DNA of 64,000 bases from Ignavibacteria bacterium (GTDB lineage Bacteria; Bacteroidota; Ignavibacteria; Ignavibacteriales; SURF-24), in assembly GCA_025612245.1 (NCBI GenBank), contig JAAXKQ010000003.1, forward strand, positions 62,001 to 126,000. The letters run 5' to 3'. This document shows positions 447 to 29,268 of this stretch, one piece after another. The translations under genes and the position numbers were made by a program. Every line of letters begins with the position of its first letter. The stretch's first letter is position 1. The notes below the pieces were generated by a model. The model was not told the DNA's origin, ran no database searches, and saw nothing but the letters and a program-made list of their open reading frames with translations.

Positions 447-1760
447 TTATTTTGCCTTGAAGGCTAATACAACCGGAACGCCTTCGAAGCCGAAGTTGCG
501 CCTCAGTGCTTTTTCAAGGTAACGCTTATAGTTATCCGGAACGTACTTCGGCTCATTTGTAAAGAATAGGAATGCCGGATAGCTGTCCCCTACCTGCGTA
601 ATGTATTTGATTTTAATTTCCTTTCCCGTTGGAGTCGACGGAGGCGGGAAATTCTTTATTTCTTCCAGCATCACGTCATTAAGCCGGCTCGTGGGAATTT
701 TCTTTTTCCTTTCCTCGTTGACTTTCTTGCACAGCTCGATGAGGTTATAGATGCGCTGTTTTGTAAGAGCGGAAATAAAGGTAATTGGGATAAAATCAAT
801 AGAGCCCATCTTTGACCTGATCTGCTCCTCGTAGTGCTTTGCAGTATTGGAATCCTTTTCAATCAGATCCCACTTGTTCACGGCGATAATAACGCCCTTT
901 CTTCTTATAAGGGCTTCGTCTATGATTTTCTGATCCTGCCCTTCCAGGCCGTTCGTGCTGTCGAGCATTACAACGGCAATGTCGCACTCGCCTAAAGCCT
1001 TCATGGTCCTTACCATGGAGTAAAACTCAATGTTCTCCTTGATCTTACTTTTTCTCCTTAAGCCTGCCGTATCGACCAGAATGATCTCCTCGCCGTAGTA
1101 TTTGAGGTAAGAATCCAGGCTGTCGCGCGTGGTGCCGGGGATGTTAGTTACAATGCTCCTGTCATATCCAAGGAGGGCATTTGTAAGAGAAGACTTGCCT
1201 ACGTTCGGCTTTCCCACCATTGCAATTCTAAGCCTTGTATCCTCGCCTTTAGTGCTGCTTGAGAAGTCAAGCCTTGCAATGATCTCATCCAGCAAGTCGC
1301 CGATTTTCCTTCCGGCCATGGCGGAAATGTCGAAGAGGTCGTCAAAGCCAAGGCTGTAAAATTCGCCAGCGTTTGGTTCATCTGCCTGTGAGTCGACTTT
1401 ATTTACGATCAGTATCGTTTTTTTGTTTGATTCCCTGAGCATTCTTGCAATTATTGAATCCATTGGGGAAAGTCCCTGCTTGGCATCAACAACAAACAAG
1501 ACCAGGTCGGCCTCGGTTATTGCAATTTCAACCTGCTCCCTTATGGCTGTTTCAAAAAGGTCCGGTGAATCGGGCACATAGCCGCCCGTATCAATAAGCC
1601 TGAAGATTTTTCCGCTCCAGTCCACCTCGCCATACTTTCTGTCGCGTGTAACACCGCTAAGGTCATCAACGATTGCTTCGCTGCTGCCCGTAAGGCGGTT
1701 AAAGAATGTGGATTTACCTACGTTTGGCCTGCCCACTATAACAACAATTGGATCTTTCAT
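447..1760 (-). CDS. der: Ribosome-associated GTPase Der (EngA)
   Basis: Der is an essential double GTPase for late 50S subunit assembly. The sequence shows two tandem G domains. The first has the P-loop GRPNVGKS (residues 10-17), DTGG and NKVD. The second begins near residue 180 with GKPNVGKSS, then DTAGLRRK and NKWD. A C-terminal KH-like domain follows (about 350-437). The length of 437 aa is normal for the family. It is the last gene of a minus-strand operon, 29 nt after the DUF5683-like gene, and a terminator follows it. Confidence 0.97.
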
Positions 1761-1789: not shown

Positions 1790-2704
1790 TTAAAAACTAT
1801 ATGTTAAATTTACCTGGGGATAAAGCTCCGAAACGCCGTAGAGTTCAACCTGCTTTAACTGCATATTCACCGCCAGACTCTTATTGTACCTGCTTGCGGT
1901 CCAAGCGGCGTCAAAGGCGCTTAAGACGTGGTTAATAACCATGGCAACCACTGCTCTTTGAGAATACTTATAAAAAGTATCGTCGGGTTTTATGTGCATC
2001 TGCGCATAATCGAGCATCTGCTGCGGAAGGTTGGTCAGGTATACCGGCGTATCAGGGTCACTGTCCTTCCATCCGTGGTTAAACTGATGGTATTTACCGA
2101 TGAGTTCATAGTACTGCTGTTCCCCGTAACCGGGCAGCACGTGTGAAAACCTTGGGATCTGGCGTTCCACGGCATTAATTTCTGCAAAGCTTACCCTGTC
2201 CTGCGGCGCTTTAGTGGCGTCGGGATCGATTTTTATATTTGAGACCACGTCGCTTTCATTTGCCACCTCGGAGGCATACTTGTTAAGCCATTCGGCGTAG
2301 CGGACTGCGCTCCAGTTTGCATTTGCGTAGCGCTGAAAGTCGAGCGTTGCGTCGTCACCTTTCTTGTCGTAGTACAACGAGGCGCCAATTGCCACAGCCT
2401 CAACAGCCAGGAAAGCGGCAGCTTTCCAGTAGCTCTGTGCGTAGGCTTCACCCGAACCGGGCAGAATAAGAGAGAACAACCCGGCAAGAAGAGGTGACTT
2501 TTTCCCGGAAAGAGAAACCTCCGGCGAATTCACGCTTTTATTGTAACCGTTAAGAGCAATCCTAGAGTCCTCGAGCAGGTTGCCAGTATACCTGCTTTGC
2601 AATGAATCACTTTTAATGGGCTCGGTTTTCCGTGAGTCGTTACTCTGAGCAAAGCTGCTATCCAAGAAAGCAATCACGAAGAGCAGCATAAGAATATTTT
2701 TCAT
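1790..2704 (-). CDS. DUF5683-like envelope protein
   Basis: A secreted or envelope protein of unknown function with a signal peptide (about residues 1-20, ending at SSFAQ). A hydrophobic region near residues 75-115 contains LLAGLFSLILPGSGEAYAQ, which resembles the conserved 'SxxlPGxGq' segment of DUF5683 proteins of Bacteroidota. An ATG at 2719 is also in frame, but AAGGAG (2716-2711) lies inside that extension and is 6 nt from the ATG at 2704, so 2704 is preferred. It sits between a surface peptidase and der in one operon, 30 nt past the peptidase stop. Confidence 0.6.
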   Translation of the reverse strand: MKNILMLLFVIAFLDSSFAQSNDSRKTEPIKSDSLQSRYTGNLLEDSRIALNGYNKSVNSPEVSLSGKKSPLLAGLFSLILPGSGEAYAQSYWKAAAFLAVEAVAIGASLYYDKKGDDATLDFQRYANANWSAVRYAEWLNKYASEVANESDVVSNIKIDPDATKAPQDRVSFAEINAVERQIPRFSHVLPGYGEQQYYELIGKYHQFNHGWKDSDPDTPVYLTNLPQQMLDYAQMHIKPDDTFYKYSQRAVVAMVINHVLSAFDAAWTASRYNKSLAVNMQLKQVELYGVSELYPQVNLTYSF

Positions 2705-2734
2705 CATTATCTCCTTCAAGTTGAGGAATAAATT

Positions 2735-5700
2735 CTACAAGTTAAAATCAAACAGAATGCCGCCGTAGAACTGCCATTCCTTTCCATATCGGACCAATTC
2801 ATTGTCTATCATCCGGTCAGCCCTGTCGAATGAATAAGCAGCGCTGAAAAACAAGCTCGTCGGGAACATATAGAACGATTCCAGTTTAACTCTCAGTTCC
2901 GTGCCGGCGCCCTTCTTGAAGGTGCTAAGCTTGGGCATTTTTTCCTCCCAGGCGTTTCCGAAGTCGCCAAAGACCGAAAGGAAAATTTTGTCCAGGTAAA
3001 GGAAGCCAAGCCTGTAGTCTATGTTCTTGAAAAGCGGGAACCTGTAAGTCAGGTTAAGCCATCCCAGGCGTTTTCCGCTTACGGCATAGAAGGGATAGCT
3101 TTTCATTCCTACGAGCCCGCCAAGGTAATAGTCGAAGAAGTCTGTTGTATCGGCCATGCGGCTGAGAATGGCGGCTCCCCTGAACTGTGCTGTAAGAGTA
3201 TGTCCCTTCCAGAGTGGAATGTGTTCTTTCCAGTTAAGTTCCAGGCGGTTAAAGTCGAAGTTATCGTATTGGCTTTTGACAATTCCGTCGTCGGCTGCAT
3301 AACGGTTATGCAAATTAAATTTATTCATCTCATAGTTATACTGCAGGTCCAATTCCCTTCCGATCGGATTTATGTCGCTATCGACATATGGAAATAGCAT
3401 CTCGTGGTGATATTTTACCTGGAAGTTCCGTCCAATGAGGTAAGTATCCTTTGTTTTCTGCTGGAGCACGTCCGGGCTGCTGGGAAGCACAAAACTTCCC
3501 AAAATGGTGGTATAAGTACTGTAAATAAACCTGAACTCCAGGTCGTTTCCGCGCGCAAAAATCCTGTGCTTGGCCGCAAGGTCCATTTCAAAAAGGTCAT
3601 AGGTAACGTCAACCGGAATAAACTTATTATCAGCTTCATCCCAGGGGAACTCTCCTTTGGCGTCCCTGCTAACGCTATAAAGCTGAAGTGAAAGTTCGGG
3701 TTTAATTCCCATGTTAAAAAGAAGCGGGAGCTTGTTCCTGTAGTTCAGTTCCAGGAAGAGATCGCGCTCCATGCGCCTGTTCAGAGATGCCCCGGCAAAA
3801 AACGAGAAGCGGTCCAGCATGTCATTTGAAGTAACATAAACTCCGGGCTTAATTTTGTCTACTGGATTATTTGATACCGAGTAGTTGTCGTATCTTACGA
3901 ACGGAAAGAAAGAAACCTTCGTAAAAGCCCCCTTGTAAGGAGTACTTTTTGTATCAGGCAGCTTATTGTCGTCATATTCAATTAAGTTATTGATGCCGAA
4001 GCCATTAATGTCGCCGTTTGACTTATCGGCACTTAAAGGGGCATTGTCGTGGGGGATATATCTTTTCAAAGGGTCAACTTTCTTTTGTTCCAGTGTATCG
4101 AGGAACAAAATTTTGTATCCTGTGGAAGAATAACCTGCATAAACGATGTTTCCCTTCTGGTCCACAGATGGCATGAAGGCACCACCGATGACGTTAGTAA
4201 GCTGCTCGGTGGCTTTGGTCCTCAGGTCCATGGAATAAATGTTGAATATTCCGCTTTCATCGCTGGAATAATATAGTTTTCCGTCGGGGCCGAATACGGG
4301 GTTCCTCTCGTCGGCTTTTGTCTGTAAGAGATATTCAAGCCCTGAGGCATCAGTTTTTACTGATGCAATGTCGCGCCCGTTAGCATTTGCACAGTCGAAA
4401 ACAACCGACTGGTCGTCATTTGAGAATCTGGGGTTAAATACCTGCTCTCCGTTTTCAAAGAAAGTAAGCCTCTTAAATCCCTTTCCCTTAATATCCACGA
4501 GTCCAAGGTTCGAGGTACCGTCTTTCTGGTAAACAAATACAATTTTCGACCCGTCGTGAGAAACAAAAGGCTGGTTTGCCCTGAGTCCGTGCGTCAGTCT
4601 TGTTTCCTCTTTTTCATTGAGGTCATAAACATAAATGTCGTGTATGTTTGTCCATGAAGGATTGTCCTCGCTAAGCTTGGAGTAAACGATTTTATTCTCG
4701 CCTTTTATCCAGCTGATGGTGGATCTGACGTTAAATGTGACCATTTCGTCTTTACCGGTCTTAAGGTCATAAGAATATACGTTTGAAGGGCTGAAATAAT
4801 CGCTCTGCTTGTTTGAAAGGTAAATTATCTTTGTACCGTCTTCGGAAAAAACGGGATAGAAGTTGCCGAAGCCTTCGCCCGCAATTTCTTTTCCCTTAAC
4901 AACGTTCTGCTCAACCTGTTCGGTCCTTCTCTTATAATCCTTGGTCAGGCTTTCCTTCCATTCATCATAGATCTCATCGCCCGACTTCCCGAGCACGTCC
5001 TTAAATGCGGCGTCCATGGTAAAGTTTTTCAGTTTTCCCAGTGCCTGCGTAATTTTTCTTAATTTATCCTCGCCATACTTCTGAGCGATGTAGGTAGTAA
5101 GGGCAAAGCCTGCATTATAGACAGACTCGTTTCCAAGGCTCGTCTTGCTGAATACGCCCATCTGGTTCCAGGTCATCATTCCCCCTTCGAGGGCATAGCT
5201 GCGCAGTATCATATCCCTGTGCGAGTCCCAGTTGTCGTAGTTAAATTCCTTTCTCATATACTGTGCCGAGCCTTCTGCAAACCAGGCCGGAACGTTAATT
5301 GTTGCAATGGGATAGGAAGCAATTACGTTAGGAAAACCGTAAAGTATATCGGGCCTTCTTTTATCCTCGTAGTTCATGAATTGGAAGTAAAAGGCAGGCA
5401 GCGTGCGGCCAAGTTTCATGGCAGACTGGATCTGGACCATGTGCGTAAACTCGTGTGAAATAACGTTCCTCAGCCAGTTATGCGTACCCCTAAGGTCGAA
5501 ATCCAGTGCCGAGGACCAGATTTCAATTTTGTTGTCAAAGAAATAGGTGGCACCATTTGAATAATCGTCTATATCCTTTACGACAAAATGAACTGTTTCG
5601 GGTTCATACTGATACAAGGAAGTAATGGGTCCCCAGACCTCATCTGCAATTTTCAAGATAGCTCTTGCAGTCCTTTCAGTCTCCTCGTGGTAGTGCACCT

Positions 5701-5821
5701 GAACGTGCTCCCCTTTAAGAGTAAGCCAGTTCAGCTCAGGATGGAATTCAGTAAACTGAGCCAGTGAAACCCTGCTCAAGAGCAGAATACAAGCTAAAAG
5801 TAATCCAAAAAGTTTTTTCAT
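2735..5821 (-). CDS. Secreted gluzincin-like peptidase / TolB propeller / outer-membrane barrel protein
   Basis: A 1028-aa envelope protein with a signal peptide (1-21, cleaved near SLAQF). The N-terminal part resembles a zinc peptidase of the MA-like clan: HEFTH at residues 123-127 and a downstream PAWFAEGSAQYM segment whose Glu fits the third zinc ligand. Residues about 310-600 contain WD40/PD40 (TolB-like) repeats such as PVFSEDGTKIIYLSN, PVFGPDGKLYYSS and PSVDQKGNIVYAG. From about 640 to the end the sequence alternates like a beta-barrel and resembles BamA/Omp85-type surface antigens (FPLFKNIDYRLGFLYLD, FGDFGNAWEE, terminal FGGILFDFNL-like strand). The substrate is unknown. The active-site residues are present, so it could be a surface-anchored protease. 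It is first in an operon ending with der. Confidence 0.75.
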   Translation of the reverse strand: MKKLFGLLLACILLLSRVSLAQFTEFHPELNWLTLKGEHVQVHYHEETERTARAILKIADEVWGPITSLYQYEPETVHFVVKDIDDYSNGATYFFDNKIEIWSSALDFDLRGTHNWLRNVISHEFTHMVQIQSAMKLGRTLPAFYFQFMNYEDKRRPDILYGFPNVIASYPIATINVPAWFAEGSAQYMRKEFNYDNWDSHRDMILRSYALEGGMMTWNQMGVFSKTSLGNESVYNAGFALTTYIAQKYGEDKLRKITQALGKLKNFTMDAAFKDVLGKSGDEIYDEWKESLTKDYKRRTEQVEQNVVKGKEIAGEGFGNFYPVFSEDGTKIIYLSNKQSDYFSPSNVYSYDLKTGKDEMVTFNVRSTISWIKGENKIVYSKLSEDNPSWTNIHDIYVYDLNEKEETRLTHGLRANQPFVSHDGSKIVFVYQKDGTSNLGLVDIKGKGFKRLTFFENGEQVFNPRFSNDDQSVVFDCANANGRDIASVKTDASGLEYLLQTKADERNPVFGPDGKLYYSSDESGIFNIYSMDLRTKATEQLTNVIGGAFMPSVDQKGNIVYAGYSSTGYKILFLDTLEQKKVDPLKRYIPHDNAPLSADKSNGDINGFGINNLIEYDDNKLPDTKSTPYKGAFTKVSFFPFVRYDNYSVSNNPVDKIKPGVYVTSNDMLDRFSFFAGASLNRRMERDLFLELNYRNKLPLLFNMGIKPELSLQLYSVSRDAKGEFPWDEADNKFIPVDVTYDLFEMDLAAKHRIFARGNDLEFRFIYSTYTTILGSFVLPSSPDVLQQKTKDTYLIGRNFQVKYHHEMLFPYVDSDINPIGRELDLQYNYEMNKFNLHNRYAADDGIVKSQYDNFDFNRLELNWKEHIPLWKGHTLTAQFRGAAILSRMADTTDFFDYYLGGLVGMKSYPFYAVSGKRLGWLNLTYRFPLFKNIDYRLGFLYLDKIFLSVFGDFGNAWEEKMPKLSTFKKGAGTELRVKLESFYMFPTSLFFSAAYSFDRADRMIDNELVRYGKEWQFYGGILFDFNL

Positions 5822-5992: not shown

Positions 5993-8900
5993 TTACTTAA
6001 TAATTGCAATTTTTACCGTATTGTTCTCAGTTTTTCCGGTTACACCCGTAGCCTGAATTCTGGCAAAATAAACGCCGCTTTGCACTCCGGAGACATTCCA
6101 AACGGTCTCGTTATCCAGGCCTCCGCGGGCATTGTCGCTTAGCTCTGCCACCAGGTCGCCTGCAAGGTCAAATATTTTGATTTCAATCTTCGAATCCTCG
6201 GAAACAAAATACCTGATGTTTGTCTGCTCCCCATAGACCGGGTTAGGCCAGTTATATGCCCTCTCTTTCGGCATAAAGACAGACTGGCGGTTTGTATACT
6301 GCGCCTGAGCTAAAAAGGAATTGCCGGAGCTGCTTCCGTTTTCCGAAGCCCAGTAAATGTTTTCCGCGCCCGAGGAAACAGTATAGGTGTAAAACAGGCT
6401 GTCTGCTGTTACGAGCGATAAAGCCGTTCTATCGGTGTTAAACAGGACGGGGTTAGTCGAAACTCTCTGCCCGGAAGAAACCGGGAAGCCTTTTATTACC
6501 CTGCCCGTAGCTGCGTTGACAGCAAAAGTACGCCCGTCTTTTGTAACTGCCAGAATTTCCGTTGCACCCAGCTGATTATTATAGAAAACGAGCGGGGTGG
6601 AATTAAAACCAATTCCCTGCGGGTCCTCGAAGGGAAAGTTGTCGGCCTGTGCACCCCTGAGGTTTAAGGCATTGAGATTCTTACCCGAAATAATTACGTA
6701 GTTTTCTCCATTCTGCTTCAGGTCGCCCAATGAAAACGAAGTAACGGCAGAGTCACCAAGTGCTCTCAGGTTAATTGTCTTTAGAAACTCTCCATTGGAT
6801 AGAACGGATATTTCGTTGTCTGAAGTAAGTACAACTGTAACATAATTCCCGTTTTTATCCTTTGTAAGTGCAATCTTTACTGCCGGAGACGTAAAGAAAT
6901 ACTCTTTCTTCAAGGGGTCAATAAGTCCATAAGAGCCTTCTGCAACTTTATAGAAAGCGGAATAATTTGTCCCGTCGAGGGCAAGATTAAGAACCGGGAA
7001 ATCCAGCGAGGGCAGATGCTCCTCCCTGATTAGCGTAAAGCCCGGGGCAGATGCCGTTCCGGGAGCATAGAAAACCACTTTTCCTTTTTCAGTACCAAAT
7101 GCAATAAGCCTCTGAGTGTTTTCACCTTCCGTAATTGCAGGAGCCGTAGAGGGGTTTTCAGAAAGAACCTGTTCAGCGGTTACCGCATTTGCACCGTTAT
7201 ATATATAACCCTTGAGCCTGTTTCCCACAATGCCTGCAACAACTTCTTCCGAAGCCGCCTGAGATGCAGCAAGTGCTGCTGAAGAAAATGCGGTAACTGA
7301 ATCCAGGATTGTGCCATTCATGCTGCTCAGTCTCAGTAAAGAAGTGCCTTTTAAGGCATAGAGATTTAACCCCAGCGCTCTAAGAGAGCTCAGGCCGAAA
7401 GGGAGTTTTCTATAGGCCAGTGGCTTAACAACTGTATCTCCGAAGGAAAGGTTAAAACTCATTTTGTCGGAGACGTCCGAAAAGTTACTCATTGTAACCA
7501 GGCTGTTTGCACCGCTGTTTGTTCTAGCAGGAGGCTGTGTATCGAATGAGAACCTGTTAGTAAAGAGTGTTGAAGGATTCGATTTATACCAGAAATCGAA
7601 TTCCGTGCCTTCGCCCACAACCTCATCGCCCAGGATTGTAGTGAATTTTTCGCCGATTTCCTGCACGCCGTCAGCCTCTTCAACGTCGACGCCGCGCCTG
7701 AACTTATCCGTATTTATCGTATTGGTAGAAATCTTTTCATTAATTACATTTTCATCAATGTGCCAGACTACAATTCCGTTTCCGGGAACAGCCCAGTCGT
7801 ATTCGTCAACATTAATGACGACACCCTTAAGTGAATCGGCAGACTCATAAGAAAAACCAGAAGTATCCTTCGGGAAAACGCGCGTAAGCGTATCCTGCCC
7901 GACGACATAGGTTACAACAGCGCCGTTTTTTAGTGCGTCGCGGCTCCTGTTTTCAACGAGGTAGTATTCCCTGGAATTAATGGGCACCTTAATGAGAGTC
8001 GTATCGCCCGGTTGTGCAGCTCTCAAAGCCTTAAGGTTAAGAGTTCCGCCATTTATATTTGCTTCCACGGGAACAGTCCATCCGAGGAACATCTTCTCCC
8101 ACGGTGAAGGCTCCGGCGGGAAAAGGCCGCTGAAGGTAAAAATTGCCTGCCCGTCCATGAGTCCGAAGCGCCCAATGGCACTTAAGCCCGTTTTTGTATC
8201 GAATAGGTCGGGAAGCCCCAGGTGGCTGCCAATGCTGGAGACGACAAGACCGTTAATTGATATCTGGAGCAGGTTCTTTGCTCCGGTAATATCCTCAATT
8301 TCCCGGCTTTCAGTTTCGGGAATGATCATCGTATTATATTTTCCATCCCTGTTCAGTGGCAGGCCTGAGAGGTCGCCTCCGATTGTATTCCTGAACATAT
8401 TATCGCTCAGATAGACTGAAGGAAGGTCCCTGTCATTTCCAAGGCTTCCAGGGATTGAAATATCGCGTCCTACGCCTGCGTGGAAAATTACAAAGGCATC
8501 GTAGGAAGAAAAATCAATTCCGGGGTTCTGCTCTTTGGCAAGGGGCCAGACTTCCTTTGCAAGCGTGCCCAGTGAAGTAAGGTCAGAAGAATTTGCCGCC
8601 GGCGCGTAGTCGCGGATTCTTTTTGAGACCGTCACCTTCGGGAGAACGGTATAGCTAAGAGTAAGGTTTCCATTGGAAACGGCTCTGAAATAGTTCTGTG
8701 CGAACTTAAGGTGCAGCGAAAAATAGCTTTCATCGTGCGGCAGCGGATCCAGTATTGAATTGCCGTACTGTGCGGTATAAATGCTGCCGAACTTGCCGTT
8801 TCCAACTGTAGTGGGATCTTCCGGCTTTTCCTCCTGGAACTCGACTAATACGGCGAGTATGCGCAGGGATTGCGGAGAGGTTTTTTTAATAGAGACCGGG

Positions 8901-8995
8901 TCAGGGTATGGAGTACCCTTCAAATTATATGTCTGGGCAGATAAACTGCCCAGACATAAAAATGACAACAGAAAAAGGAATAGTTTTTTGTGCAT
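5993..8995 (-). CDS. M6-like (immune inhibitor A-type) T9SS cargo, zinc site lost
   Basis: A 1000-aa secreted protein with a signal peptide (1-20, GSLSAQ). The N-terminal ~450 residues match the M6 peptidase-like fold: ILAVLVEFQEE, SSYDAFVIFHAGVGRD, GLPDLFD and the WEKMFLGW region. The M6 signature HExxHxxGLPDLYD reads here as S253-S254-I-G-S257-H-L-G-L-P-D-L-F-D, so both zinc histidines and the catalytic glutamate are replaced by serine; the codons were read directly (8225-8239). A beta-propeller-like middle follows. The last ~85 residues are a T9SS type A sorting domain (NWPNPV, YFVSEDSKIEIKIFDLAG, SGVYFARI, VKIAIIK). It is therefore probably a non-catalytic surface protein. It follows porV by 5 nt. 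Confidence 0.85.
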   Translation of the reverse strand: MHKKLFLFLLSFLCLGSLSAQTYNLKGTPYPDPVSIKKTSPQSLRILAVLVEFQEEKPEDPTTVGNGKFGSIYTAQYGNSILDPLPHDESYFSLHLKFAQNYFRAVSNGNLTLSYTVLPKVTVSKRIRDYAPAANSSDLTSLGTLAKEVWPLAKEQNPGIDFSSYDAFVIFHAGVGRDISIPGSLGNDRDLPSVYLSDNMFRNTIGGDLSGLPLNRDGKYNTMIIPETESREIEDITGAKNLLQISINGLVVSSIGSHLGLPDLFDTKTGLSAIGRFGLMDGQAIFTFSGLFPPEPSPWEKMFLGWTVPVEANINGGTLNLKALRAAQPGDTTLIKVPINSREYYLVENRSRDALKNGAVVTYVVGQDTLTRVFPKDTSGFSYESADSLKGVVINVDEYDWAVPGNGIVVWHIDENVINEKISTNTINTDKFRRGVDVEEADGVQEIGEKFTTILGDEVVGEGTEFDFWYKSNPSTLFTNRFSFDTQPPARTNSGANSLVTMSNFSDVSDKMSFNLSFGDTVVKPLAYRKLPFGLSSLRALGLNLYALKGTSLLRLSSMNGTILDSVTAFSSAALAASQAASEEVVAGIVGNRLKGYIYNGANAVTAEQVLSENPSTAPAITEGENTQRLIAFGTEKGKVVFYAPGTASAPGFTLIREEHLPSLDFPVLNLALDGTNYSAFYKVAEGSYGLIDPLKKEYFFTSPAVKIALTKDKNGNYVTVVLTSDNEISVLSNGEFLKTINLRALGDSAVTSFSLGDLKQNGENYVIISGKNLNALNLRGAQADNFPFEDPQGIGFNSTPLVFYNNQLGATEILAVTKDGRTFAVNAATGRVIKGFPVSSGQRVSTNPVLFNTDRTALSLVTADSLFYTYTVSSGAENIYWASENGSSSGNSFLAQAQYTNRQSVFMPKERAYNWPNPVYGEQTNIRYFVSEDSKIEIKIFDLAGDLVAELSDNARGGLDNETVWNVSGVQSGVYFARIQATGVTGKTENNTVKIAIIK

Positions 8996-9000
8996 TTTAA

Positions 9001-10161
9001 TTAAATCCCGCGGGGTAAACCTTTAGTTTGTGCAGGAGCAGAGCCCCAGCCGATTAAAAGAGTAAATCTTAATGTATCTGACAGCGGATGGTTTTCGCCA
9101 CCCTTGAATACTGAAGTAGTAATGTAGCTGAAGTCGAACCCGTACATATCATAACGTATACCGGCCCCAAGCGTGAGGAACTTTCTGTTGCCGTAGCTTG
9201 GATCCTCGTAGAAGTACCCGCCTCTTACGGCAAACTGGTAATCGCCAGGAATGCCGTAGACATATTCAAGACCCATTGAAGTAACGATTTCTCTTAATTC
9301 ATCTTTAAAACTCTGGTCGTTCCAGGCAGTAAAGATAGCCTTATAGAATTCATCCTTCGGTTCCTTTCTGCTTACAAGGAGCTTGCTGAAATCGAGCGTA
9401 TAGGTCAGTGAGTTATACTCATCGTCCATTATCTTGTAGGCAAACCCGAGGCGGAAGTTGGTAGGTATAGGATCTGCCTGTGCCTTATTGATATAGTAGA
9501 TCTTAGGACCGATGTTGCTTAAATTAGCGCCAATAGAGAACCTGTTTCCAATGTCCTCTCCTGTAAATGGAATCTCCAGCTTGCTGGGTCTCCACATACC
9601 ACCGATATCAAAGCTGACGGTTGTAGCGCTTCCTTCGCCGCGCTGTTCACCAACACTAATCTTCCCGGAAAGCCTGCTGTGTATAAGCCTGAAATTAAGT
9701 CCCAGTCCCCAGTCGGGAGTAACTTTAGTGGCATAACCGACAGTAAGCGCGGCATCAAAGGAGTGGAATCGTCCCAGTTCAGTAGGATCCGACTCGCCGG
9801 TCTGAATGAATTCGCCGAAATTCATATAAGTAATACTGGAGGTAATACTTCCATCAATTTCGGGGACATACTGACGGAAAGTCAGGTAATCGTAGAAAAG
9901 ATCGAGCTTGAACTGCGGCAGCCAGTTACTATGAGTAATGCTGAGTTCTGTACCGCTTTGGAAAGCAATACCTGCAGGGTTCCAGAATATTGCAGCAGAG
10001 TTGTCGGCCAGACCGGCACCGGATTCACCGATACCGCCGGCTCTTGAATCGGGAGCCAGCAGCAGGAACGGTACAGCAGTTTCACCTCCCTGTGCATATG
10101 AAACTCTGCTTATACCCATTACAACAGCCAAAAGCAGTATAAGCTTTGATAAAACTTTCAT
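9001..10161 (-). CDS. porV: PorV/PorQ-family outer-membrane protein of type IX secretion
   Basis: A FadL-like 14-strand outer-membrane beta-barrel of the PorV family. In T9SS, PorV shuttles cargo from the translocon to the PorU sortase. Diagnostic segments are the signal peptide ending SRVSYAQ, then FLLLAPDSRAGGIGE and SAAIFWNPAGIA directly after it, and barrel strands to the C-terminus. An in-frame ATG at 10203 exists, but GGAGG (10171-10167 region) stands 5 nt before the ATG at 10161 and the signal peptide begins there. Encoded between porU (83 nt upstream) and the M6-like cargo. Confidence 0.9.
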   Translation of the reverse strand: MKVLSKLILLLAVVMGISRVSYAQGGETAVPFLLLAPDSRAGGIGESGAGLADNSAAIFWNPAGIAFQSGTELSITHSNWLPQFKLDLFYDYLTFRQYVPEIDGSITSSITYMNFGEFIQTGESDPTELGRFHSFDAALTVGYATKVTPDWGLGLNFRLIHSRLSGKISVGEQRGEGSATTVSFDIGGMWRPSKLEIPFTGEDIGNRFSIGANLSNIGPKIYYINKAQADPIPTNFRLGFAYKIMDDEYNSLTYTLDFSKLLVSRKEPKDEFYKAIFTAWNDQSFKDELREIVTSMGLEYVYGIPGDYQFAVRGGYFYEDPSYGNRKFLTLGAGIRYDMYGFDFSYITTSVFKGGENHPLSDTLRFTLLIGWGSAPAQTKGLPRGI

Positions 10162-10244
10162 CTTGTCCTCCAGGAAATAAGTTATTTTATTTTCTTTTTT
10201 CATTTTTTTGACGATTTATTTATTGATTCTCTTTTGAGCCATTC

Positions 10245-13200
10245 TCATCTTATGACAGCAAGCTTACCCAGCACTTCCTGCTTATATTGTTCATCGACAC
10301 TCTTTACGATCAGCTTATACAAATATACACCGTTAGCCAACAAGTTTCCGTCATTATCTCTGCCATCCCAGTCAATTCTTACAAATTTATCGGTAATGCC
10401 CATACCTTCAATTTCCTTTATCATTCTGCCTGCAACGGTATAAACCTTGATTTTGACGTCAACCGGGTTAGCCATATTTCTCTGGAACGTAAAAGTAGTG
10501 TTTGTGCTGAATGGATTAGGATAATTCAAAACATCGCGCACCACTAGGTCACTTCCGTCCACGACCGTAAAATGCTCTTCTGCTTCAGAAGGATTATTGA
10601 AAATATCCCATGCCCTAACCTGTATTTTATAGTCCCCACTTTCAAGGCCATTAAAATTATACTTTATGGTTCCGGATTTTCCCCCTGCATTCAGGTCACC
10701 TACAAAATAACTCGACAGGTCGATAGGTGAAGACTCATTATCGTTGAGAATTCCGGTAATTTTGTGGCCAATTCCGGTACCTGTTGTATTAAGGCCGGAA
10801 TCATCCTTCAGTTTCACGTCCAGCGCAAAATTGGGTTTTACAAGATAAGACGAAGAAGTGCTTGCATCGTCAAAAGTTATGTCTATCTGTGGCCCTTTCT
10901 GGTCGTTGACGGCAGTGGAATCCGTTCCGCCAACGACAATGCTGTCCGTATAGCCGACCACGTTTTCTGAATTGTTGCTATAAAGGAATGCCTCAACCTT
11001 CCCGTTTTTGTTCTCATAAGAGATATCCTTCGGGACCTGGAACTCTGTAGAGAAGAGCCCGTCTTTAACCGATACCATTCCCCTGAAAAGGAGTCCCCCC
11101 TGGTAGACAGCAGGCTGGTTACCGAATTCTTTCATTAAAACGAGTTTCTTAGAGTCATATACAGAAACGATGCCTTGTCCGTTAAAACTGTTGTCAATTG
11201 AACCATCGCTCTTTCTAACAGAGCCGTCAATTTTCGCCTTTGAGAGCGCCTTTAGCTGAACAACATTTCCCAACAAAGTCCTGCTGTTCACGGAATCAAT
11301 AGAGGCTGCCTTAACAGGCATCAGGAGCCTGAGCGTTGGATCGCCAGAGAGGTAGAACTTCAGGTCATTTACCGCATTATTGTTCATTTTGGTTGCATAG
11401 TAGCTTTTCCCAACCGGCTGAACGTATCCGGTGGAATCGGTCCTGAAAAGGTTCATGTAGAATGACTTTGCAAGGGCAAAATTATCGAGTGAATACACCG
11501 TTCTGGAAGATGTAAATGCGCCAATTGAACCGCCGTCGGGCTTCAGGAGCATCATTTCAGTTGAGCTCTGGACACCGGGTTCATCATAGCGCCCGAAATC
11601 GCACGTGGCAGCAACCAGGAAAAAGTACTTATTGTTTACAAGCTGGGGTATTGTAACGCTCTTTTCAAATATGTATTCATGCGACCATACCTCCGGGTTG
11701 CCATGCCCAATCCAGTTCAGTATGAGCGTTCCATCATTAACAGCTTTTATAATTGCCTGGTTTACAGCAGGCTTTCTTCTGCCTGTTCCGGTTGCAACCG
11801 TAGGATAAAACTCCTCGTAAATCTTATTCTGGTCGAATGTCTTTGGAACATACTCCGTTGAAATTGTTTCGGATTGTGTAGCATGTGCCGCACCATCCCA
11901 GCCGTCGCTCTTATAGTTGTCGTCGGCAACCATTGTAACCAGGTTCCTCCACAAGCCGGGGTCGGACTTTGTTTCATAATCGATTATCTTATCCACGGCA
12001 GCCTTTGCATCTGCAGGCGTTAAAGCGTTGATCCTTCCGATTGCCAGATCCAGCACGTTATCATTACCGGAAACAGTGGCGTAGAAATCGTCCGAGACGT
12101 ATGTATCCATATTATGGAAAGAATTGTCCGATTCATAAGGAATAATAAAACTCTCCTCGGAACTCAGTACATTTTTATAATCATAATTGCCGTCCCCCAA
12201 AAGAAGCACGTATTCCGGCTTAACGGTCCAGTTGTCATATGCATAGCGTATAAAATTTCTTATGGCACTGACATCCCTCATGCCGCATGAAAACTCATTA
12301 AATATCTGGTCGACGTCAACAACGCTGGTTGAAATCCTGAACTTTGACTCCGACTCCTTGAAAGCTTTCAGGCGGTTAGCCTGGTCGATGAAGTTTTTAT
12401 GAGAAATAATGATATATTTTGCTTCATTGGTAGCATGGACGTTAGAATTACCAATTTCAGTAAGCTTTCCAGGAGTCTTGTAGGCATCAGGTCCCACGGC
12501 CATAAATTTGGACAATCTGCTCCTGCTTACAATGCTTCTGAAACTGCAGTCGCCACCGCTTCTATTAGAATCGGTAATGCGCTTTAAGTTTGCGCAGTCG
12601 GTTATGTCAAATACCTCAATACCGCTTCCTCTGAAACCATTAAGCCTGAATTCATCCACACCGGTTGAATCGACGGAATAAAACAGGATTGATTCATTTT
12701 TCGCCGTGAGCTGCATGTCGTAATAGATCTCAAAATAGTTGAGGTATCCCGCCGACTGGCTTCCCACATTTGGCTTATAAGTAAACTTAAGCATGCTCTT
12801 GTCGTCCGGTAGCACAGACTTGTAAGTGGCATTAAAGACCTGGCTTATTGCATAATCATCAGTCGCTAGGTTCGATACGCCAGTGCCGTTTATATAAGCA
12901 TTAAGAATTAAGGTTGAATTTTCCTGCAAGCTTATCAGAGCGCTGTAATCGGAGCGGTTTACAAAATTAAACTTGTATTTAATGGTGCTCCCGCTTACAA
13001 TGTTGTTAAGATCTGTCCTATAAGTCCTGCTGGGGGTAGTTTCATCGAACTGGTCTCCAACGTAGAGCTTGCCGCTGTTTAGAACCTTATGAGTATCATC
13101 TTCAAACGAGGCATAAGCCTTGGTTGTAGTCTGCAAAAAGTCAGGGTTTTGTTTAAGGTTCTGGACCTCCTGCATTTTTTTCGAAGCGTCCTTGCCGAAT

Positions 13201-14237
13201 GTAAGCCAGAAATAGTTGCTATTCGAGAATAGGTGGAAATACCTTTGCACTTTCTGAGTGACAGTATCGTAATCAAAGAACTGGTTTCCCCTTCCGTAGA
13301 AAAGTATAAAGTCGTCATCATTAAACTTGCCGTCATCGACGCTCTTGGACAAGTAGACAGCATTTTCGACGAGGTCGTCCGCCACATTAACGTCCAGCCT
13401 TTCGGGAAGCATTTTACCCCCGTTATTATAGATTTTAAGCGTCTTGGGGTCAATTAAAGCGGGATCAAGTCCCTGCGCCCTTAAGAATGAGGCATTTATC
13501 TTATAAATGCCTTCGGCAGGAGCCTCGAAGCGGAACCATCTTCCATCCGACATGACACTGTTAACGACCGCTTTGCCGAGCCTGCGCGGCTGGCTTACGC
13601 TCCAGTTTTTTGCGGCCTGGTAGTTAATAAGGCTTTCCTTCAGGAGATCGTCATCTTTAAGGTTTCCCTGAGCAGTTACTTTTGCTGAAGCAAAGCTGAT
13701 TCTGATTACAATTTTTTTGTAGAGCCTAATTGAATTTTTTGCAGGATCGAACTGAACGGGATAAACCCTTACGGTCTGCACCGGAACGTTCCGGGCCATG
13801 CCGTATGAGCCGAAAGAAACGAGATCATTCGTCTGGTACTGTCCGTATTTTTCACTTACAAAGTCGGCCGTTGTCAGCATTCCGTCTTTATATAAAGATT
13901 TCTTAATGGGTTCAACCCTGCCCTGGATTTCCACGTAATCGGAAGCTAAAACCTGGATAGTGTTTCCCAATTCGGCGGGAACGCCAACAGAGAAAGATTT
14001 AACCGGAATGGCAGGCATGCCGAAATCCTGTAAATTGAGGATTTCACCCTCATTGAATGCAATATGCTTGTAGGGCTGGTTATTAATAATAACCGTAGAG
14101 GTGTCAGTATACTGCGGGCTAAACTCCAGAGTCAGCGACCTGGTGTCCGATGATATGACTTTAATATCCTGCGAGGCCAGTACATTTATACCGGTAAGGA
14201 GGACAAAAGTAAATATAATAAAGTATTTGCTTTTCAT
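10245..14237 (-). CDS. porU: Type IX secretion sortase PorU (C25 gingipain-like)
   Basis: PorU cleaves the C-terminal sorting domain of T9SS cargo and attaches the cargo to the outer surface. The 1330-aa protein has a signal peptide (MKSKYFIIFTFVLLTG...LAS), a gingipain-like propeptide/Ig region, and a C25 domain in the middle. The catalytic dyad is visible: His845 in NWIGHGNPEVWS and Cys879 in VAATCDFGRYDEPG. The C-terminal ~90 residues form a type A CTD (VLNYPNPFSTNTTFTF...NGVYLYKLIV...LGKLAVIR). A TTG start at 14246 is possible; the ATG at 14237 is preferred because it gives a clean signal peptide. First gene of the porU-porV-M6 operon. Confidence 0.93.
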   Translation of the reverse strand: MKSKYFIIFTFVLLTGINVLASQDIKVISSDTRSLTLEFSPQYTDTSTVIINNQPYKHIAFNEGEILNLQDFGMPAIPVKSFSVGVPAELGNTIQVLASDYVEIQGRVEPIKKSLYKDGMLTTADFVSEKYGQYQTNDLVSFGSYGMARNVPVQTVRVYPVQFDPAKNSIRLYKKIVIRISFASAKVTAQGNLKDDDLLKESLINYQAAKNWSVSQPRRLGKAVVNSVMSDGRWFRFEAPAEGIYKINASFLRAQGLDPALIDPKTLKIYNNGGKMLPERLDVNVADDLVENAVYLSKSVDDGKFNDDDFILFYGRGNQFFDYDTVTQKVQRYFHLFSNSNYFWLTFGKDASKKMQEVQNLKQNPDFLQTTTKAYASFEDDTHKVLNSGKLYVGDQFDETTPSRTYRTDLNNIVSGSTIKYKFNFVNRSDYSALISLQENSTLILNAYINGTGVSNLATDDYAISQVFNATYKSVLPDDKSMLKFTYKPNVGSQSAGYLNYFEIYYDMQLTAKNESILFYSVDSTGVDEFRLNGFRGSGIEVFDITDCANLKRITDSNRSGGDCSFRSIVSRSRLSKFMAVGPDAYKTPGKLTEIGNSNVHATNEAKYIIISHKNFIDQANRLKAFKESESKFRISTSVVDVDQIFNEFSCGMRDVSAIRNFIRYAYDNWTVKPEYVLLLGDGNYDYKNVLSSEESFIIPYESDNSFHNMDTYVSDDFYATVSGNDNVLDLAIGRINALTPADAKAAVDKIIDYETKSDPGLWRNLVTMVADDNYKSDGWDGAAHATQSETISTEYVPKTFDQNKIYEEFYPTVATGTGRRKPAVNQAIIKAVNDGTLILNWIGHGNPEVWSHEYIFEKSVTIPQLVNNKYFFLVAATCDFGRYDEPGVQSSTEMMLLKPDGGSIGAFTSSRTVYSLDNFALAKSFYMNLFRTDSTGYVQPVGKSYYATKMNNNAVNDLKFYLSGDPTLRLLMPVKAASIDSVNSRTLLGNVVQLKALSKAKIDGSVRKSDGSIDNSFNGQGIVSVYDSKKLVLMKEFGNQPAVYQGGLLFRGMVSVKDGLFSTEFQVPKDISYENKNGKVEAFLYSNNSENVVGYTDSIVVGGTDSTAVNDQKGPQIDITFDDASTSSSYLVKPNFALDVKLKDDSGLNTTGTGIGHKITGILNDNESSPIDLSSYFVGDLNAGGKSGTIKYNFNGLESGDYKIQVRAWDIFNNPSEAEEHFTVVDGSDLVVRDVLNYPNPFSTNTTFTFQRNMANPVDVKIKVYTVAGRMIKEIEGMGITDKFVRIDWDGRDNDGNLLANGVYLYKLIVKSVDEQYKQEVLGKLAVIR

Positions 14238-14366
14238 GCTTCCCAATAGTAGCCACCCCGGATTGCATTAACAACCGGCAGCCAGCTCAAAATGATTAAT
14301 AATTTACAGTTGTGAAAACTTGTTAAAAATGTAGCAAATACTCTATATACACTTCCTTTTTTGGGA

Positions 14367-28299: not shown

Positions 28300-29022
28300 T
28301 TAAGACTTACGTTTAAATAATTTACTAAAAGTTTTAAACATAGATTCAAATTGCTTAGTTGTAGCAATTACATCTGGGTCTTTAGAAAGAGTAGTGAATG
28401 TTTCACTTACTTCAACAAAAGCTTCTAAATTAGGGTGTTTTTCTTTATCTTTTTTAAGAATTTCTTTTAGTTGTTGCGTTTTAATTTCTAAAGAAGCTAT
28501 TGGATTATCATTAATTAGTGTATTAGCATAAGTTTGATTAGAATCATTTATTGGAGGCTTTGGTTTACGTGAAACTCCCAATATACAATCAAGTAATTTT
28601 ACAAAACCAGATTCATATACATCAGGATTAGACAAATCAATGTAAATTCTACCCTTTAAATAATTCGGTAAATACGGCTGATTATTTTCGTCCCTTTCTT
28701 TAATTATTGGAATAAATTTTGTCTGATCAGAATTATTATATACATAGTTCGAAATAATCAAAGTTTCTACACCAACACCATCTTTCCGAATATTAGCCTT
28801 TCTTTGATATTCTTTTGTAAGAACAATTAATACCTTTTTAATTGAATCATCGGTTGTGATATATTCCATAAACTGATTCTCATCTTGCCCCTCCTTTAAA
28901 TCCCATATATCAATAACGACATCGATGCCATTATTTAATAATAATTTTGCCAACTTTATGACCCAATCCTGGTGGCTCTTATTTTCCCAAGCATAGGATA
29001 TTGCAACTTTTGAGATGGCCAT
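28300..29022 (-). CDS. SEFIR/TIR-domain protein
   Basis: The N-terminal ~150 residues match SEFIR/TIR domains: VAISYAWENKSHQDWVIKLA, GIDVVIDIWDLKEGQD, KKVLIVLTKEYQRKAN, GVGVETLIIS, KFIPII and YIDLSN. Bacterial TIR domains often degrade NAD or make signals in phage defence; the Glu of GVGVE is a candidate catalytic residue (inference). The C-terminal ~80 residues are charged and helical. ATG 29022 is preceded by AGGTGA at 5 nt; the upstream extension to 29082 has no such site. No partner gene (effector or sensor) is adjacent, so it is an orphan within the tRNA island. Confidence 0.75.
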   Translation of the reverse strand: MAISKVAISYAWENKSHQDWVIKLAKLLLNNGIDVVIDIWDLKEGQDENQFMEYITTDDSIKKVLIVLTKEYQRKANIRKDGVGVETLIISNYVYNNSDQTKFIPIIKERDENNQPYLPNYLKGRIYIDLSNPDVYESGFVKLLDCILGVSRKPKPPINDSNQTYANTLINDNPIASLEIKTQQLKEILKKDKEKHPNLEAFVEVSETFTTLSKDPDVIATTKQFESMFKTFSKLFKRKS

Positions 29023-29268
29023 ATCTTCACCTATTGATAAAATTAATTCGTTAAAATTAATTATAAATAACGTTATTCCCAAAGTGAATATTTATTTAAG
29101 GAATTACATATTGAGGGAAATACATTTTTTACTGGCTACGATATGGTTACGGGAAATAGTCTAAATGATAGAAAATTGGGTAAAATGTTCCAATATATTC
29201 CCAAGGCTTAAAAGCTAGTAAAATAATAACTTATGAAAAAATAAATATTTATAAAAAATCCCTCGGAT

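Follow-up and report, generated by a model that had tools for sequence, protein, structure and literature searches.

The window, the whole stretch of 64,000 nt that was analysed, carries a run of minus-strand genes whose order, PorU-PorV-M6i-PD40-DUF5683-Der, recurs at ortholog loci. The genes, and the features within two of them, are as follows:

10245–14246, minus strand: porU, the T9SS sortase (NF033707, 986 bits against a cut-off of 420)
9001–10203, minus strand: porV, the carrier of type A C-terminal domains (CTDs) (NF033710, 252 bits against a cut-off of 250; PF19572)
5993–8995, minus strand: the M6i gene, 1000 aa from an ATG start (NF052323.1 match and open frame)
7442–8878, minus strand: M6-like domain of M6i, residues about 40–518 (TIGR03296 below cut-off, AlphaFold, Foldseek)
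8198–8239, minus strand: dead M6 motif SSIGSHLGLPDLFD, residues 253–266, with H, E and H replaced and Asp263 kept (alignment of orthologs)
6368–7438, minus strand: beta-propeller of M6i, residues about 520–876 (VIA-align Z 25–29 to propellers, BamB among them)
5996–6265, minus strand: T9SS type A CTD of M6i, residues about 911–1000, ending VKIAIIK (PF18962 and TIGR04183 above cut-off)
2735–5821, minus strand: gene for a 1028-aa protein named for its PD40 repeats (domain matches, structure, co-occurrence)
5441–5455, minus strand: HEFTH of the PD40 protein, residues 123–127, with H, E and H invariant in 82 of 82 sequences
1790–2719, minus strand: DUF5683-like protein, conserved in the cluster (26.5 bits, just under the cut-off of 26.7; synteny)
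447–1760, minus strand: GTPase Der-like protein, named by sequence only

The M6i gene begins 5 nt past porV, as an earlier, sequence-only reading of this DNA had stated, and, with a single exception, the two genes adjoin at every locus that is long enough to show the neighbour. Elsewhere in the window, a 260-aa protein (28300–29082, minus strand) has an N-terminus that resembles, by eye, a candidate SEFIR/TIR-type domain.

The protein encoded after porV matches the NCBIfam model NF052323.1 (T9SSA_dep_M6i) over its full length (928.8 bits against a cut-off of 600, model positions 5–1043 of 1043). It is a member of this family, the "T9SS-dependent M6-like inactivated metalloprotease", from which it differs neither in its inactivation nor in its CTD. 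The zinc-site loss that the sequence-only reading reported is real, but as a family this is not new, since NCBI curators have already named it and noted its inactivation. A literature search for a study of the NF052323/M6i family found no paper. What is added here beyond the NF052323 name is the component-type end of the CTD and the constant co-occurrence with the PD40 metallopeptidase, both described below.

Nucleotides 8225–8239 encode exactly SSIGS (residues 253–257), the equivalent of HExxH, such that both zinc-binding His residues and the catalytic Glu of the M6 motif are replaced. No gap is needed to align it with an intact M6 motif from another genome (GVFAHEYGHDLGLPDLYDT versus GLVVSSIGSHLGLPDLFDT). 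H253, E254 and H257 are each kept in none of 104 orthologs, comprising 83 aligned sequences (identity with the window protein 24–47%, as compared here) and 21 further ones, mostly of other families. Among the 83, the replacements are Ala, Ser, Gly or Asn at position 253, Ser, Asn, Thr, Gln or Met at 254, and Ser, Asn or Gly at 257. Asp263, which we take to be the third M6 zinc ligand, is invariant in 83/83, as are Asn248, Gly249 and Pro262. Mean column conservation reaches its maximum for the protein over residues 251–300 (0.76–0.81; other 25-residue blocks, 0.15–0.67). No second HExxH was found in the window protein; among the 83 orthologs, a single one contains a stray HEMAH at another place in its sequence. 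An open frame and a motif loss, both common to 104 orthologs, exclude chance, and the loss of the site is ancient and conserved rather than decay. The sequence-only reading had described the frame as open and proposed a non-catalytic role, with an ortholog alignment as the check; the frame is indeed open, and the conserved loss supports the role. It had named two observations as contrary, a different HExxH within the domain and orthologs with an intact site at the same locus; the window protein has no other HExxH, and none of the 104 orthologs has an intact site. The same genome encodes an active-looking M6 paralog with an HECGH motif and a cargo-type CTD (HECGHMIFGLPDLYD; G000:C5, L138 3125–7426, plus strand), so M6 activity in general has not been lost from the lineage.

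An AlphaFold2 model of M6i built from 65 sequences has a mean pLDDT of 92 and its top Foldseek match is the InhA2 zymogen (4yu6, E = 3e-12), which bears out the M6 fold predicted earlier. The protein shares this fold, the GLPDLFD segment, the Met-turn and the ENR features with M6 (immune inhibitor A) peptidases such as InhA2, but lacks the two zinc His and the catalytic Glu that are present in those enzymes. Measured against an active M6 peptidase, it thus has the fold, lacks the HExxH residues and matches TIGR03296 only below the cut-off (70.1 bits against 110.8, E = 2.7e-19). VIA-align matches to the model were filled by propellers and barely covered the M6 domain. BamB is among the better of these matches (Z about 25–26), but with a fold as common as the propeller such a resemblance is no proof of function.

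The T9SS sorting domain named in the sequence-only reading is borne out by two models (PF18962, 37.5 bits against a cut-off of 27; TIGR04183, 29.7 bits against 23). PorV is the carrier of type A CTDs, which bind to SprA plus PorV (PMC12618676, PMC10994853), and three components, PorA, PorU and PorZ, keep their CTDs (PMC11285876). The terminus of the M6i CTD is of the PorU/PorZ kind (KxAVIK), unlike that of cargo (KKMxLxK). An end of the form K[ILVM]A[VIL] occurs in 64/82 M6i, 33/66 PorU and 14/19 PorZ sequences and in 2/64 cargo proteins, while the cargo-type end KKxxL was found in 50/64 cargo proteins, 0/82 M6i and no PorU or PorZ. A low score does not account for the unusual end, as low-scoring CTD proteins of the same genome still end in the cargo motif. 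The likeness is confined to the last strand: whole-domain scores gave the cargo model as the best for M6i CTDs (median 44.9 bits, versus 35.9 for PorU and 16.9 for PorZ), and therefore do not support a grouping of the whole domain with PorU and PorZ. The CTDs of P. gingivalis PorU and PorZ have a longer hairpin (PMC11285876); this was rejected as a mark of M6i because the loop length, judged by eye, equals that of one cargo CTD of the window. The last strand nevertheless provides a simple sequence mark by which, in these genomes, cargo can be told from T9SS components. Its form suggests that the M6i CTD is probably retained, as in PorU and PorZ, which would keep the protein at the outer membrane; we regard this as a hint, not proof.

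Two further CTD-like proteins of ~1100 aa adjoin PorV-family paralogs in the same genome (G000:C44:96500–107500, L212 3285–6566, minus strand; G000:C11:70500–80000, L213 2921–6271, minus strand), and both end in KVAVIQEQQILDRF, a component-like end followed by a short tail. In this genome, at least 18 genes of the PorV/PorQ family score above the cut-off of NF033709, and the CTD matches at E ≤ 0.001 number 126.

The PD40 gene, which follows M6i, encodes a protein predicted to combine a gluzincin peptidase with a TolB-like propeller and with a barrel of the BamA type. The barrel resembles that of BamA (Z about 21–23), with the peptidase and TolB propeller in place of the POTRAs found there. H123, E124 and H127, together with the third ligand E183, are invariant in 82/82 sequences, and the PD40 protein is apparently a live, predicted outer-membrane metallopeptidase. 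Its Pfam and NCBIfam matches included no full-length model.

The distribution of this protein follows that of M6i. In a phylum set of 198 genomes, 78 encode M6i and the identical 78 encode the PD40 protein (sets compared by hand; E ≤ 1e-100 for M6i and ≤ 1e-89 for PD40, with the next PD40 match at E = 3e-30), and in a class set of 197 genomes, which overlaps the first, PD40 is present in 142 of the 142 with M6i (threshold 1e-60). Three genomes of the class set appeared to have PD40 only, with the gene at or near a contig end in each, and were rejected as exceptions: in G238 M6i is present but truncated where the contig ends, and G311 and G230 end inside PD40. The pairing also holds in families f15, f19, f34 and f45, where PD40 is unlinked from M6i and still present. 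G151 has neither gene in the interval from porV to the DUF5683 gene, where G081, its sister from the same genus, has both. Mapping M6i presence on a PorV tree, made by a quick method, required only 3–4 changes, so few independent events lie behind the co-occurrence. The sequence-only reading had tied the function of the protein to secretion; the adjacency to porV and the component-like CTD end support this, but the closest link in gene content is to the PD40 metallopeptidase and not to the PorU sortase that its title named.

We propose, with a probability of about 0.5, that M6i is an ancient secreted pseudoprotease and the dead partner of the live PD40 metallopeptidase in an accessory T9SS module. 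From established T9SS knowledge, its CTD would carry it through SprA to PorV, and M6i would then stay at the outer membrane with the CTD retained. There, the dead cleft and propeller could hold or present a substrate, or regulate the PD40 enzyme, which would do the cutting. The pair would constitute an accessory module outside the universal core, present in Ignavibacteria and in several further lineages of the phylum. In this proposal, export and fold draw on family knowledge and models, and the partnership on gene content; it is from the co-occurrence that we infer an interaction, with M6i working alongside PD40. A difficulty is that, by analogy with BamA, the PD40 peptidase and propeller would face the periplasm and M6i the outside, so that the two may meet only in transit. 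The stronger version, in which the pairing of dead M6i with live PD40 is obligate and makes up an unrecognised accessory module of the T9SS that works on the outer membrane independently of PorU, we put forward tentatively and at clearly less than even odds.

To our knowledge, the T9SS has hardly been studied outside Bacteroidia. If the pairing is true, Ignavibacteria, along with several other lineages, have an uncharacterised two-protein module that adjoins their PorU-PorV genes and survives loss of the sortase, and it would offer a clear test case of pseudoprotease and live protease partners at the outer membrane.

The co-occurrence could also have a simpler origin, as genes that once shared an operon can be passed on together. 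M6i would then be a plain non-catalytic T9SS cargo, such as a surface binding protein or adhesin that turns its dead cleft and propeller to external ligands, and whose link to PD40 reflects shared operon ancestry. The few changes on the PorV tree fit this explanation, as does a type A CTD that lies nearer to cargo by whole-domain scoring. However, the CTD ends as in PorU and PorZ, PD40 stays with M6i even where the genes are far apart, G151 lacks both, and M6i is a single-copy gene next to porV, whereas cargo proteins are numerous and scattered. We therefore consider the cargo explanation unlikely, although it deserves to be taken seriously.

A structural role in the PorU-PorV attachment complex, in which M6i would act on sortase function in the manner of PorZ, is improbable. 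The gene order porU-porV-M6i and the shared last strand are in its favour, and a PDB profile search with M6i matched PorU (6za2) and PorZ (5m11), in both cases via the CTD. PorU and PorZ are also linked to or dependent on PorV, as is M6i. However, M6i has no C25 sortase domain and, unlike both proteins, is missing from many T9SS genomes. An attachment component should be present wherever PorU is, but 63 of 136 PorU-positive genomes are without M6i, and in five genomes with M6i neither PorU nor PorZ scores above the cut-off, though SprA, PorV and PD40 are kept. Replacement of PorZ by M6i was rejected because PorZ scores over the cut-off in this genome and in most others with M6i. As a separate observation, the genomes G061, G081, G108, G119, G171 and G151 are nearly complete and contain SprA, PorV and 7–32 CTD matches, with no PorU over the cut-off.

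Residual activity of M6i, based on a different metal site or on other chemistry, is very improbable. His172, Asp190, His412 and Asp414 are, like Asp263, invariant or nearly so in the ortholog alignment, which could reflect such a site, but the three residues on which an M6 protease depends for activity have all been lost. The active M6 paralog likewise has the HAG motif, which contains His172, and the ENR motif, so these look like fold residues. The idea that an active protease decayed recently, for which nothing speaks except the loss itself, can be set aside given the open frames, the lack of a single intact site across the orthologs and the fact that the dead-site segment is the best conserved of the protein.
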